A stretch of DNA of 32,078 bases from Treponema sp. (GTDB taxonomy: Bacteria > Spirochaetota > Spirochaetia > Treponematales > Breznakiellaceae), in assembly GCA_031286205.1 (NCBI GenBank), contig JAITUR010000065.1:1-32078 (forward strand). Direction: 5' to 3'. Positions 21,336-25,775 of the stretch are shown piece by piece. The first letter of the stretch is position 1. Every line of letters begins with the position of its first letter. The position numbers were made by a program, and so were the translations under genes. A model generated the notes under the pieces. That model did not search any database and was not told where the DNA came from. It was given only the letters and a program-made list of their open reading frames with translations.

Positions 21336-22466
21336 CTAACCCTCTATCTTTTTTAAAATGGTCAGCAACTCTGCACCGCGGATGGGTTGGGCAGGTCTAA
21401 AGTTGCGGCCGTCGGGAAGTGACAGGAACTCTCTTTCTACACAGCCCAGTATTGCATCAAAATAAGGAGAAAGAACCGGCACATCTGCGATTGGACTGCG
21501 CGGGTCTGTTCCTCTTGCATAGCGGGCCGAGTAACGGGATAACATTCCGCGATCCGCGCGGGCTTCTGCAAATAAGTGCCAAATTAGATAAGCGGCTCCG
21601 GCACGAGTAACTGTTTCTGTAATGTTTGGTTTTGTCATTGGCCAGTTTGTTATGGTAATATCCTGGGTAAACGGAATAAAAGCACGATCCAGTAAACGGT
21701 TAAACAGATCAGCTTCTGTAACATTTCTGCCGCCTGTCATAAATCGTAAAAGTTGAGTCTCGTTCTTTATAATGGTTATACAGTCATTCCAGCTAAGAGT
21801 ATCCTGAATAAGAAATCCAAAAGTTCCGACCGCAATTCCTGTGGCATTGCGAAGCTCCCATGCACGGGCTCTGTATGTAGAATAACTTTCTCTGTAAACG
21901 GGGTTTATCTTGGAAGCAAAAGCAATATCAAATGCGCCGGCGGCTTCGGAAAACCGGCTTAAATCCAGAAGCGTGCGGGCTCTTTCTATATTTAACTCAC
22001 CGGCTCCAACGGCATGAACGCCGGCAGCCATTAATTCTCTGTCTATAATTTCCAGTCTTTTTGCAGGGTCTCCTTCCATCCGAATTCCCAAAACAATAGC
22101 CGGAACATTGCCGGACGAAACAGTATTTGACTGCCTGTGTAATCGCTGGGCTTCGCTGTATCGTCCTGCTAAAAGTTCAAGCCTGCCCAGCCATGCAGTA
22201 AGTTTGGCGGAATAGTCGGCATCCGCTGCGGCTTCTTTTTCCATATCGGTAATTATCTGCCGTGCGCCGGTAATATCGGCTTGGCTTGGACGCACACCGG
22301 ATATACTGGCGGCTTCGAACGGAACAATCGCTGCTTCAACTTTTGCAATATTTTCTTCCAGTTGACCCCTCTGGCTGTTAATGGAAATATCGCTTAATGT
22401 TTTACAAGACGGAAACATCGCTGTAATTAAAAACACAATTATTAACACAAATAAACTTTTTTTCAT
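21336..22466 (-). CDS. Lipoprotein with helical-repeat body and SLH-like C-terminus
   Basis: The 376-aa product has a lipoprotein signal with a relaxed lipobox (MFPSC, Cys21). Residues about 30-200 are Ala/Leu-rich helices with TPR-like spacing (LTAWLGRLELLAGRYSEAQR, ARTLLDLSRFSEAAGAFDIA). The C-terminus (YFDAILGCVEREFLSLPDG, then FRPAQPIRGAELLTILKKI) resembles an S-layer homology module. It may tether envelope components; that is inference. GTGGAGA lies 4 nt before the ATG. It follows the 882-aa anchored protein by 24 nt and is probably in the same operon. It ends 15 nt from the convergent clpB stop. Confidence 0.7.
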   Translation of the reverse strand: MKKSLFVLIIVFLITAMFPSCKTLSDISINSQRGQLEENIAKVEAAIVPFEAASISGVRPSQADITGARQIITDMEKEAAADADYSAKLTAWLGRLELLAGRYSEAQRLHRQSNTVSSGNVPAIVLGIRMEGDPAKRLEIIDRELMAAGVHAVGAGELNIERARTLLDLSRFSEAAGAFDIAFASKINPVYRESYSTYRARAWELRNATGIAVGTFGFLIQDTLSWNDCITIIKNETQLLRFMTGGRNVTEADLFNRLLDRAFIPFTQDITITNWPMTKPNITETVTRAGAAYLIWHLFAEARADRGMLSRYSARYARGTDPRSPIADVPVLSPYFDAILGCVEREFLSLPDGRNFRPAQPIRGAELLTILKKIEG

Positions 22467-22490: not shown

Positions 22491-25139
22491 CTATCTAAAT
22501 TGCCAACGGTAAAGTTTACGATCCATTCCAATGCCGAACACCTCGGCTTTTTTCCCGCCCTGTGCTTCTATAAAATATGGTTTTCCCCAAATAGGCAGGG
22601 GGAATCCTTCCAAAGAACGGAAGTTGCGAGTATATGCATGAAGCGCATTGCCTTCGCCGGTTATAAATATTTCCGGTATATTATCGCCATTGGTATCAAA
22701 AAAGGTTATATACCCTACTTCTTTAACAACAAAGTCAGGGATATTTTGATACAACATTTCTCCTTCCAAACTTACTCTATAAAGAGTTCCATCTTGAGAA
22801 ATAAGCCATAAATAGGTTCCGTCAAAAACAGGCTGGAAATAGAACATATTGTTTAAAAACAGGGGGAATGGCGAAATAGAAGAAGCATTTTCGTCATAGA
22901 CAATTAATTCGCCTGTCTGGCATACAAAGGCGGTAAGCACACGGTTATTATGGGTAAATACCAATGGAGTTCCAAAACCTATACCGACACTTGCAGTAAA
23001 TTCATCGTCCTTGATATTGCCGGTACTTATTGGAGCCGGCCAGCCGGGCAAGGTTTTTCCCTGTGCATCTAATAGGTAGATTTCGCCAAAGAAACTTTTT
23101 GGATAAACTGCGGCATAGTTTGCGCCTGGGGTTCGCCCTCTTGCAGGAACCGAAAGGAACGAAGGGGGCGAAATTAACGGTACTGTAAATACGGTTTCCC
23201 AGTTTTTCTGATTTGCTTTTGTATCGATCATAATTACATGGCCATCGTCGTCGCAAAGATAAACACAGCCTTCGAATGCAACGGGAGCGGCGGAAATTCG
23301 AAGCCCCGTAAGTACAGGGAAATTTTCGTGCGGATCCATATTGCCGTCGACAAGAGTTACCCGCCCTCTATCGCTTACTACCCAGGCATTTACCGCATCT
23401 TTTCCGCCGGCTCCAACAGCGGGGATAACCCAATGTCTGCCCTGACCTGTAATGTCGTACACACTGTTATCCGTTATATCCATTGAAAAAGCGGTATTGC
23501 CGGCAGCAAAGAAAATTCTATTGCCCATTCCAAAAACCTGGCTGGACGCTCTTCCAATATCCAGCGGATAACCGCCGACAAGCGTTACGCCGTTTCCGGA
23601 TCCGGGAATTAAAGAGAACGAAAAATCTACAACGCCTCTGTTAAAACTAATGCGTACCAAACCCTGCCGGTAAAGAGACAGATAACCGCTAAGGGCGGTA
23701 TTTTGCCGCAGGAAGAACGGCATAGAACGATCCATTGAATAATAAACGCTAAAGGCGGTAGCTGCCGTTTTGCCGCCCGCAATATTGCGCCATGTATTTG
23801 TGCGCGGCAAAACATCATTTCTTTGCATTGCACGCAGGGCGGCAAGAAGGGTGTCGGCAGATTCGCTTACTAAAATAAAATCTCTGTAAATTGTATAGTA
23901 CGGCGACGGCAGATTAATATCCCACTTTCTTAAAAGCAGCTGTAAAAAATCCGGAATGGAAATTCTTGGAAGCCTTGTTCCATCCAAGCTAAGTCTTGTA
24001 TCTTCGTTAAGTAAAATCGAGCTGAACGCTTTGTCAAAAACCTGCTGCCGTTTTCGTTCATCTTCCACCTGAATTGCATAGACAGGGTGCGGTCTTCCTT
24101 CCATGCCAAAGACGGCGTACTCATTACCCGTCCAGGAAAATAATAATTCGTCTAATGTTAATCCAAATGCAATGCGCGAAGAAGATTCTGCAAATTTTAA
24201 GGTATCTTCCATGTCCGGCATAAACACAATTGCAGCCTGATAAAGCTCCCGCAAAGTTCCGGCAGAAAGAATTGTGGCATATTGGGTAGAACCGGGCAGC
24301 CTTTCGTTTATGTCCGATGCCCGGGAACGGCTTTGAAGAAATTTGCTTAATGTAGACTGGTTTGATGTCATTGGCACTGTCAGGTAGAACTCTATTTTTT
24401 TTGGATAAATGGAAAGACCTGCTTCTACAGTGGAATCAAATTCAAGACTGTCAAGAATTTCCGCAATTTTTGGATCTTGGTCCGAAAAAAGTTCGTTTAT
24501 AAATTGATGCGAAAGCCTTACAGCCGCATCGTAATTTGATATTTTAATATTCTTAAAAGGAAGAGCTTCGTTATCTGCCGCCAAACGAGCCTCGAAAACT
24601 TTTGAGCTATTGGTAATAAATAAAACATTCCTGTGCGGCCCAATAAAAACCGTCATGTCATCCAGCCGGTATTCGAACCGGGAATTCTTTCCGGCCTGTA
24701 CATAGTACAGATTGGGTATTGTAACAAAATTGGAAGCAATGGGAATAAGCCGCAGCAACGGCGATAAAAGTTTTAAATCATAAGCGGCGGCAAACGAACC
24801 GTCAGCATCATCTGACAATAGGGCAAGCTCCATTTTTCCGCCCATTAAATTGTGCAATAGACGGTTTTTAAGAAGAGGGTTTTCTTTTAAAGATTCAATA
24901 AGAGGAGACATATAAGCCAGTTCGGGGACAGTGGAAATATCATCCAGCGATTCATGGGCTAAAAGACCGTTAATTAAACGGGATGGGTTGGGGACAGTTA
25001 TTCGAATAACCGCGGTATCGGGAATAACCTTTGCCGCATCGATCCTGCCAATCAATGAAAATGCAATCCAAATAACCGCAAGAGCGGCCAGCACGATAAA
25101 AAATATTAACAGACCTTTAAGGAATTTTTTAATTTTCAT
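22491..25139 (-). CDS. Membrane-anchored protein with C-terminal beta-propeller
   Basis: The 882-aa protein has one N-terminal helix (FLKGLLIFFIVLAALAVIWI, about 6-25) and a long extracytoplasmic part. The N-terminal half (to about residue 500) may match the DUF3352 type, but I am not sure. The C-terminal half contains repeated strands of WD/PQQ-like propeller character (VYLCDDDGHVIMIDTK, GEIYLLDAQGKTLPGWP, GELIVYDENA, GTLYRVSLEGEMLYQ) and an FG-GAP-like FFDTNGDNIPEIFITGEG, a pattern of Ca2+-binding Asp loops. It probably works in envelope assembly or outer-surface display. A TATAAT (25148-25153) ends 8 nt before the ATG, but the gene also lies 9 nt downstream of a 53-aa gene, so both internal start and read-through are likely. 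Confidence 0.7.
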   Translation of the reverse strand: MKIKKFLKGLLIFFIVLAALAVIWIAFSLIGRIDAAKVIPDTAVIRITVPNPSRLINGLLAHESLDDISTVPELAYMSPLIESLKENPLLKNRLLHNLMGGKMELALLSDDADGSFAAAYDLKLLSPLLRLIPIASNFVTIPNLYYVQAGKNSRFEYRLDDMTVFIGPHRNVLFITNSSKVFEARLAADNEALPFKNIKISNYDAAVRLSHQFINELFSDQDPKIAEILDSLEFDSTVEAGLSIYPKKIEFYLTVPMTSNQSTLSKFLQSRSRASDINERLPGSTQYATILSAGTLRELYQAAIVFMPDMEDTLKFAESSSRIAFGLTLDELLFSWTGNEYAVFGMEGRPHPVYAIQVEDERKRQQVFDKAFSSILLNEDTRLSLDGTRLPRISIPDFLQLLLRKWDINLPSPYYTIYRDFILVSESADTLLAALRAMQRNDVLPRTNTWRNIAGGKTAATAFSVYYSMDRSMPFFLRQNTALSGYLSLYRQGLVRISFNRGVVDFSFSLIPGSGNGVTLVGGYPLDIGRASSQVFGMGNRIFFAAGNTAFSMDITDNSVYDITGQGRHWVIPAVGAGGKDAVNAWVVSDRGRVTLVDGNMDPHENFPVLTGLRISAAPVAFEGCVYLCDDDGHVIMIDTKANQKNWETVFTVPLISPPSFLSVPARGRTPGANYAAVYPKSFFGEIYLLDAQGKTLPGWPAPISTGNIKDDEFTASVGIGFGTPLVFTHNNRVLTAFVCQTGELIVYDENASSISPFPLFLNNMFYFQPVFDGTYLWLISQDGTLYRVSLEGEMLYQNIPDFVVKEVGYITFFDTNGDNIPEIFITGEGNALHAYTRNFRSLEGFPLPIWGKPYFIEAQGGKKAEVFGIGMDRKLYRWQFR

Positions 25140-25148
25140 ATTTCGTAA

Positions 25149-25310
25149 TTATATCCTATTTTGGGTTTTGTTGTCTTTAGATTCGGTTGGGATAGGGTTA
25201 TTTTTTGCAAAAACCAAGGCTTGGAGAATACCAAGAATATAATCCTGCTGCTCATCGTTAAGCAGGGTAAAATCTTTGCATATTTTATTCAGCTTCTCTT
25301 CCCTGTCCAC
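25149..25310 (-). CDS. 53-aa protein resembling the C-terminal helix of XRE regulators
   Basis: A GTG start at 25310 is preceded by GGAGG with a 5-nt spacing, and the frame stays open for 53 codons to a TAA at 25149-25151. The product begins MDREEKLNKICKDFTLLNDE and continues QQDYILGILQALVFAKNNP. The F-x-x-L-(x)4-Q-x-Y-I/V-(x)5-L pattern also occurs at the C-terminus of the divergent XRE protein (LFSELPPKFQDYVMQQVESL), where it probably mediates dimerisation. There is no HTH. It is expressed from a TATAAT (25352-25357) flanked by GTGAGT repeats. It may be a small partner or antagonist of the regulator; that is inference. Confidence 0.6.
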   Translation of the reverse strand: MDREEKLNKICKDFTLLNDEQQDYILGILQALVFAKNNPIPTESKDNKTQNRI

Positions 25311-25343
25311 TACACCCTCCGGTAAATGATTTTCACTCTATTT

Positions 25344-25423
25344 GTGAGTATATTATACTATATTGTGAGTATTGTAAATACTTTATTTCCTCAAATTGAA
25401 AAAAACTTCATTGCATAGTGAGT
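25344..25423. promoter_or_regulatory. GTGAGT direct repeats between divergent promoters
   Basis: GTGAGT occurs at 25344-25349, 25365-25370 and 25418-25423, spaced 21 and 53 bp (close to whole helical turns). The first two stand in the longer TTGTGAGTAT context. They flank the -10 of the 53-aa gene, and the third lies directly after the -35 of the XRE gene. Likely operator sites for the XRE protein; binding is inferred. Confidence 0.55.
25352..25357 (-). promoter_or_regulatory. -10 element of the 53-aa gene
   Basis: A perfect TATAAT on the reverse strand, 41 nt before the GTG start, leaves a leader with the GGAGG site. No clear -35. GTGAGT repeats lie on both sides. Confidence 0.5.
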
Positions 25424-25439
25424 GTTATTGTAATATGAT
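25411..25439 (+). promoter_or_regulatory. Promoter of the second XRE gene (leaderless)
   Basis: TTGCAT (25411-25416), a 17-bp spacer and TATGAT (25434-25439) are followed after 6 nt by the ATG at 25446. A GTGAGT repeat sits in the spacer. Confidence 0.65.
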
Positions 25440-25445
25440 AAGACT

Positions 25446-25775
25446 ATGACAGTTAGTAAGCGAATAAGACATTTACGACATACCTTAAATATGTCTCAGG
25501 TTGAGTTTGCTAAATCAATCTATATAAGTAATGGATATATTGCGGAACTGGAATGTGAACATCGCAAGGTTAATGACAGAATTATTCATTTAATTTCGTT
25601 GACTTTTGGCGTAAGCGAAAAATGGCTGAAAACTGGCGAGGGGGATATGTTTTTTTCCACACCCGGGGAAAAACTACAGCGAATGGTTTCTTTATTTAGC
25701 GAGCTGCCTCCAAAGTTTCAGGACTATGTAATGCAGCAGGTCGAATCTCTTTTAACTGTAAGCAGCGAGAAGTAG
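25446..25775 (+). CDS. XRE-family regulator
   Basis: The 109-aa protein begins with a Cro/CI-type HTH (about 4-65): KRIRHLRHTLNMSQVEFAKS, YISNGYIAELECEHRKVND, then RIIHLISLTFGVSEKWLKTG and EGDMFF, a signature of a common XRE subfamily. The C-terminal 35 residues (LQRMVSLFSELPPKFQDYVM) form a likely dimerisation helix. It is divergent from a 53-aa gene that carries a similar helix, and three GTGAGT repeats lie between them, suggesting control of both promoters. A SpoU-type methyltransferase gene follows after 5 nt and is probably co-transcribed. Confidence 0.85.
   Translation: MTVSKRIRHLRHTLNMSQVEFAKSIYISNGYIAELECEHRKVNDRIIHLISLTFGVSEKWLKTGEGDMFFSTPGEKLQRMVSLFSELPPKFQDYVMQQVESLLTVSSEK

Follow-up and report, generated by a model that had tools for sequence, protein, structure and literature searches.

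The Treponema sp. genome encodes a 53-aa protein, here called sml53, whose two-helix hairpin resembles the C-terminal hairpin of a 109-aa XRE regulator encoded by the adjacent, divergently transcribed gene. The pair lies in a window of 32,078 nucleotides (the whole stretch of DNA analysed, contig JAITUR010000065.1). We propose, with moderate confidence, that XRE represses both divergent promoters and that sml53 is a SinI-like antirepressor acting via mixed dimers; together they would form a self-contained feedback switch. The observation is confirmed and extends beyond the original claim, and paralogous divergent pairs recur in related Spirochaetia.

The small gene

The genes of the pair and the ribosome-binding site of the small gene are as follows.

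25149..25310, minus strand: sml53, a 53-aa small protein lacking an HTH, with a hairpin (residues 3-37) and a variable, poorly ordered tail (residues 38-53)
25316..25320, minus strand: ribosome-binding site GGAGG, with 5 nt between it and the sml53 GTG
25446..25775, plus strand: 109-aa XRE regulator, with the HTH at about residues 5-66 and a C-terminal hairpin (helices 73-86 and 89-108; Pfam, AlphaFold2)

The sml53 frame begins with GTG and its stop lies 9 nt ahead of the ATG (25139) of an 882-aa gene. The first-pass annotation had proposed it as an overlooked gene on the basis of GGAGG, the 5-nt spacing and the GTG, and the frame and the coding signature of its homologues agree. Most homologues start with ATG or GTG and have a G-rich ribosome site 5' of the start. 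Synonymous-site conservation in relatives, a check suggested at that stage, gave mean uncorrected values of 0.705 for pS and 0.160 for pN (pN/pS 0.23) over codons 3-36 of 24 homologues, with variability of 0.14, 0.04 and 0.37 at codon positions 1, 2 and 3. None of the 24 has a stop in this frame; in the five remaining frames, stops interrupt 17, 24, 20, 23 and 22 of them. Judged by this signature, the frame is a real gene under coding selection.

No Pfam, NCBIfam, PHROG or PADLOC family was identified for the protein at E<=1, and no toxin, phage or defence family. Solved structures include no relative of the family by sequence (best E 0.72), and a Foldseek search with the sml53 model gave no useful match in the PDB or among viral models. 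The sml53 family seems to be new. At one locus (L053, 4001-4273) the small protein carries an extended tail built of RGTAL(Q/H)(D/N)A repeats.

The XRE regulator and the shared hairpin

XRE matches HTH_19 (2.6e-7) and also HTH_3 in Pfam, and scores above the curated cut-offs of PF12844 (30.9 bits; cut-off 30.2) and PF01381 (25.2 bits; cut-off 23), which places it in the XRE/HTH_3-type group. Sequence searches against solved structures returned five matches at E<=0.01 (PezA, 434 repressor forms, ClgR), spanning the HTH region and extending at most to profile position 83. Foldseek aligned the XRE model with SinR of 1b0n over 98 columns (E 0.02, TM 0.54, rmsd 8.7). The VIA second look at the model concerned mainly residues 1-69 and is therefore uninformative on the hairpin. 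A second XRE of the same family is encoded elsewhere in this genome (locus L106, contig C62, 1-215), where it faces a short frame of two-helix pattern that has a weak start and is cut by the contig start.

The stretches encoding the two hairpins are the following.

25200..25304, minus strand: sml53 two-helix hairpin (helices 3-16 and 19-37), matching the XRE C-terminus (AlphaFold2, hhalign)
25662..25769, plus strand: XRE C-terminal hairpin, resembled by sml53 (hhalign, AlphaFold2)

AlphaFold2 predicts the sml53 helices with block pLDDT of 92-98 over the first 40 residues and those at the XRE end with 66-75, which is moderate confidence. The two predicted hairpins agree helix for helix at an offset of 70. 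A common pattern, F-x-x-L-(x)4-Q-x-Y, had been noticed from the letters alone; it runs through F14, L17, Q22 and Y24 in sml53 and F84, L87, Q92 and Y94 in XRE. That likeness holds up, as does the lack of an HTH in sml53: the profile match exceeds its controls. BLASTP gives 9/29 identities (E 6e-4 for this single comparison). Alignment of the two family profiles with hhalign covers 35 columns (E 1.6e-6, probability 90), and against the C-terminal part of XRE alone the score is 33.3 (E 2e-7), whereas none of 200 column permutations scores above 18.2, reversal of that part lowers the score to 8.0 and the HTH half reaches 10.4. In a search of its own genome with the sml53 family profile, the sole other match at E<=10 falls on the C-terminal end of the neighbouring XRE (E 0.15). 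The match is thus homology-like and beyond the controls, and a generic amphipathic hairpin could account for part of it. As in SinI-type antagonists, an HTH-less small protein resembles the C-terminal hairpin of its partner regulator; SinI resembles the C-terminus of SinR.

The likeness might instead be fortuitous, with sml53 an unrelated operon leader, or a protein with its own function, that is merely regulated by XRE. Two-helix hairpins are common, and the sml53 model found no useful match in the PDB or among viral models. The permutation, reversal, shuffle and other-ORF controls (see also below) speak against it, as do the restriction of the own-genome profile match to the adjacent XRE and the retention of the small gene where it is unlinked or has no co-directional gene behind it. 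We give this explanation the least weight, as a very slim chance.

Under the favoured reading, in which the two hairpins pair, the composition of helix 2 is also informative. At sml53 positions 27, 31 and 35, small residues occupy 0.72, 0.72 and 0.69 of 61 filtered partners (seven named loci and the L035 artefact were left out, reducing 76 to 68, and the anchor filter kept 61 of the 68). At the equivalent XRE positions the fractions are only 0.11, 0.07 and 0.07 of 110, with bulky residues instead. Among 32 non-orthologous partners the small-residue fractions drop to 0.50, 0.47 and 0.44. This small-residue face hints at mixed rather than self pairing. Residue pairs at positions 22/92 (Q or K/R) also covary (Q-Q 41, Q-K 19, K-K 8, K-Q 0; n=68, p 3e-4), and we do not use this as evidence because the anchors are plainly off in some cases and the counts take no account of phylogeny.

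Promoters and candidate operator

We identified two promoters and three GTGAG boxes (short direct repeats, no strand assigned) between the divergent genes.

25350..25378, minus strand: sml53 sigma-70-like promoter (TTTACA, 17 nt, TAATAT), from conservation in the alignment, read by eye
25411..25439, plus strand: XRE promoter (TTGCAT, 17 nt, TATGAT), from the alignment read by eye; absent from the consensus-scan list
25344..25348: candidate operator box 1, GTGAG, near the expected sml53 transcription start
25365..25369: candidate operator box 2, GTGAG, exactly 21 bp from box 1 and within the -35/-10 spacer of the sml53 promoter (repeat D2)
25418..25422: candidate operator box 3, GTGAG, 28 bp upstream of the XRE ATG, within the promoter spacer

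A consensus scan found five promoter-like sites in the 1-kb region, with 3.5 expected; because this count is near chance, the sml53 promoter call rests on alignment conservation. The boxes are far from chance: 53 occur in 19 intergenic regions of the genus, whereas 300 mononucleotide shuffles average 1.0 and never exceed 4. Across these 19 loci the pair with 21-bp spacing lies over the small-gene promoter in 16 and the XRE-promoter box, TTG[CT][AT]T[AT]GTGAG, occurs in 17. The distance of this box from the ATG is 28 bp at 16 loci and 29 bp at the remaining one, L014. A twentieth locus (L024), with the XRE box present and the 21-bp pair absent, was left out of these counts.

With at most one mismatch, a scan of the 39 genus genomes for the two-box pattern gives 18 places, spread over 17 genomes, and none for the reverse-read control. 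All 18 places, compared by hand, are directly upstream of a small gene. The GTGAG pair is therefore restricted to the small gene in the 39 genus genomes. Seventeen of the 22 genus genomes with a small gene carry the pattern; the five without a match at one mismatch are G154, G161 (boxes 22 bp apart), G163 (cut at a contig end), G167 and G182. In its own genome the pattern is single, with one further place at two mismatches. We considered a wider regulon and found none, given this single occurrence and the position before a small gene at 18/18 places in the genus.

Lying within the promoter spacers and near the expected transcription start, the boxes suggest that both genes are repressed, though activation or co-repression may also be at work. 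Only 6 nt separate the XRE -10 element from the ATG, and the distance from box to ATG is nearly constant across the genus; thus the XRE mRNA (start region 25434-25446) is probably leaderless. The lambda cI mRNA from PRM is leaderless.

Conservation and spread of the divergent pair

XRE is divergent from the small gene at 26 of 30 homologous loci. The remaining four are two contig ends (L019, L023), L003 with no adjoining XRE, and L028, which is degenerate, with no XRE in the stretch examined. A search for the same pair in other treponemes, proposed with the original observation, therefore finds it in many relatives. Based on comparison of these loci, the divergent pair is the conserved unit. 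The alignment sets were A1 (28 of the 30 loci; L023 and L028 left out), A2 (14 of the 26 XREs), A3 (the window plus 25 of 27 named loci; L053 and L065 left out) and A4 (the window plus 23).

Among 195 genomes of the family searched, 53 have a small-gene match at E<=0.1; at E<=2.6e-10 a match occurs in 22 of the 39 genus genomes. Of the 27 named relatives, all MAGs or genomes, all but two bear the label Treponema, Spirochaetia or Spirochaetaceae; the exceptions are one Brevinematales and one Tannerellaceae. The spirochaete-like pair on the Tannerellaceae-binned contig (L055) is probably due to misbinning, possibly to transfer. Judging by isolate codes, these relatives, like the Spirochaetia that carry paralogous pairs, probably come from termite guts.

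XRE paralogues of the family are often found opposite a short ORF of two-helix type. In two more distant families of the class, such an ORF was found at only 11 of 20 XRE loci (one by profile, L036/L139, and ten by eye). When partners are chosen by position only, 103 XREs have enough upstream DNA for the test, and at 76 of them a divergent ORF of 38-125 aa begins with a good start. The XRE C-terminus profile scores above 8 bits in 0.461 of these 76 (orthologues included), compared with 0.004 of 1025 other small ORFs, 0/1520 shuffles and 0/76 reversed sequences. Beyond L001-L034 and L044-L070, just 11 of 46 position-chosen partners exceed 8 bits; the top row of the test, L035 (64 bits), is another XRE rather than a small partner and was excluded from the 46. 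Of the 27 XREs without a position-only partner, the small-family profile finds a small gene at ten (L029, L036, L071, L079, L080, L086, L087, L099, L107 and L116). Others of the 27, such as L112 and L113, have no small gene in the stretch read.

The small-family profile gives 133 matches at E<=1, which come from overlapping loci and hence are not independent: 97 are divergent from an XRE, 19 lie inside an XRE (18 of them at its C-terminal end) and 17 are elsewhere. The last group comprises nine strong matches (contig ends, unlinked or degenerate), two tail to tail with an XRE (L084, 182-945, and L095, 2888-3542, which are thus not divergent) and six others (L017, L037, L040, L042, L059 and L100). 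In a single-contig genome of 4.1 Mb (L097) the divergent small frame is just 39 aa and looks degenerate, with XRE intact. A same-family XRE was identified at E<=1e-14 in 8/148 genomes of the class sample (own genome included), and 11/392 genomes of the phylum sample match the small profile at E<=0.01, two of them (L037, L040) with no XRE of this family in the stretch examined. The module therefore occurs in certain lineages only.

Dependency of the small gene on XRE

All 22 genus genomes with a small gene (E<=2.6e-10) have an XRE orthologue at >=70% identity, and 3 of 25 genus genomes with XRE have no strong small-gene match. In G160 the contig ends 260 nt upstream of XRE and the GTGAG before XRE is kept. 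In G162 the small gene and the box pair are both lost, with the XRE box retained, and in G175 the GTGAG before XRE is altered. The XRE of G175 (L113) directly faces a lipoprotein gene that by eye resembles the 376-aa gene of the window, as would be seen after joint loss of the small gene and the 882-aa gene.

In G181, XRE faces a chemoreceptor-like gene (by eye), and two small genes unlinked to XRE, on other contigs, each keep the box pair. Each is followed by a convergent ABC-transporter-like gene and not by an envelope operon. These two genes of one MAG (L044, 898-1056, and L046, 3535-3714), on contigs without XRE, adjoin uvrB-like or ackA-like genes (by eye), and could reflect a duplication or two strains mixed in the MAG. 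At L013 the small gene is followed by a convergent clpB. Taken together, these genomes indicate that the small gene depends on XRE and not on the downstream gene. The dependency runs one way.

The same homology, pairing and box data would fit a co-repressor or set-point device, in which sml53 joins XRE oligomers and stabilises or limits repression (negative feedback) with no relief. The 21-bp spacing of the two boxes hints at cooperative binding, which a partner protein could modulate, and phage P1 employs a small co-repressor, Lxc (excerpts of PMC11323111). Loss of the HTH, on general reasoning and by comparison with H-NST, is expected to yield a dominant-negative partner, and XRE persists without the small gene in the three genomes described above, with its GTGAG kept in two of them. 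We therefore regard a co-repressor as unlikely, and favour an antirepressor.

Genes behind the small gene

Two genes follow sml53 in the presumed operon.

22491..25139, minus strand: 882-aa gene 3' of sml53, with an N-terminal hydrophobic segment and weak beta-propeller and DUF3352 matches below cut-offs
21336..22466, minus strand: 376-aa protein with a lipobox-like N-terminus (by eye), the next gene of the presumed operon

A homologue of the 882-aa gene is present at 18 of 30 small-gene loci (flanks of up to 1.5 kb), and the pair is retained with other genes, or none, behind the small gene. The 882-aa gene is an operon partner in this lineage and not a constant part of the module. The first-pass annotation had envisaged a feedback switch over an envelope operon: the operator data fit the feedback, and the envelope operon is not a fixed output.

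Genes for exported proteins are common beyond the small ORF. In a first crude count there were 26/42, compared with 0/29 beyond XRE. With a fairer background, a signal peptide or lipobox occurs in the first larger gene at 29/50 paralogue loci and in 35/117 background genes (Fisher p 6e-4), with classes assigned by a regular expression plus a hydropathy threshold and the small gene unconfirmed at some of the 50 loci; fifteen loci of L044-L070, counted apart, gave 4/15. Because of these crude classes and unconfirmed genes, the exported link is a lead only. Such genes follow the small ORF at, for example, L072, L073, L080, L098, L107, L108, L119 and L124-L129. At L086 (1515-3095, minus strand) the small hairpin continues in frame, with no stop, into an exported-protein gene, either as a fusion or as a shared frame with an internal start.

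A module that is retained while its neighbours change, with a private operator, no further target found and an XRE resembling phage repressors, might also be a toxin-antitoxin-like system or a relic of a phage repressor and antirepressor, selfish or conferring immunity, with XRE neutralising sml53. A relative is encoded in 0/41 pattern-matching stretches of viral contigs (a scan with one conserved peptide pattern only), and the small protein, as noted, belongs to no toxin, PHROG or PADLOC family identified. A toxin that copies the C-terminal hairpin of its antitoxin would be unusual, and the neighbours in the window include a SpoU-type methylase and ClpB. We consider such an origin highly improbable, and return to the antirepressor.

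Proposed switch

We predict that XRE dimerises through its C-terminal hairpin, which would be of dimerisation type, and binds the GTGAG boxes that overlap both divergent core promoters, thereby repressing the small gene and itself. The sml53 hairpin would pair with that of XRE and take its pairing surface. The resulting mixed dimers would fail to hold the two-box operator, and XRE would be inactivated. Relief of the sml53 promoter would then lead to more sml53, a double-negative (positive) feedback that may make the switch bistable. The output would be the small gene and whatever follows it, here the 882-aa protein and the lipoprotein. This proposed mechanism is well motivated.

Comparison with known systems

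The nearest system in action is SinI/SinR (PDB 1b0n), which also combines an XRE-type repressor with a small antagonist. The SinI:SinR heterodimer breaks the SinR tetramer and frees DNA as part of a bistable circuit in Bacillus subtilis, and sinI and sinR share one transcript (both from excerpts of PMC6123443), whereas the genes described here are divergent. The sequence families also differ: the SinI domain (PF08671) was not identified at the sml53/XRE locus, and a search of the own genome gave two sub-threshold places, both elsewhere.

Phage TF-smORF modules share the arrangement of the genes: a regulator gene lies beside a divergently transcribed small antirepressor gene, as the small gene lies beside XRE at the 26 loci above. 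In those modules, according to excerpts of the paper (Silpe 2023, PMC10432266), the regulator activates the smORF, which targets a third protein, cI, and the smORFs have no homologues. In contrast, sml53 resembles the adjacent regulator, the boxes occupy positions that fit repression, and the pattern scan turned up no viral relative.

H-NST consists of the oligomerisation domain only and antagonises full-length H-NS, most likely via heterodimers (PMC7074111, in the part available), and is thus alike as a pairing-domain-only antagonist of a full-length regulator. It differs in being island-borne and in targeting a global silencer, and does not form a divergent one-to-one pair with a private operator. 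The arbitrium AimX and phage repressors (PDB 9iaq, 9sf2) again combine a small protein with an XRE-like phage repressor, to judge from the entry titles, and the repressor chains of both entries are weak Foldseek matches of the XRE model. These belong to Bacillus phages under AimR/AimP control, and the AimX paper PMC10769878, in its excerpted text, concerns MazF.

We found no description of the sml53/XRE pair in the literature searched (mainly open-access, with few subscription journals or preprints). The early suggestion of a possibly undescribed module seems to hold for the family, and not for the kind of mechanism, since HTH-less antagonists of repressors are already known from SinI/SinR, H-NST and phage antirepressors.

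Implications

More broadly, and tentatively, gut Spirochaetia may possess a large, undescribed family of portable switches, each combining an XRE with a divergently encoded, HTH-less version of its own dimerisation hairpin, with contacts specific to the pair and a private operator, often placed before changing genes for exported proteins or lipoproteins and flipping individual surface genes on and off. We regard this generalisation as possible though doubtful. If true, a new multi-copy family of bacterial microproteins that keep only the pairing domain of a regulator would join the few known cases. One genome can hold several paralogous pairs, and these would thus provide a natural set in which to study what keeps each pair insulated from the others. 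The switches would also offer a testable handle on surface-gene switching in poorly studied gut treponemes.
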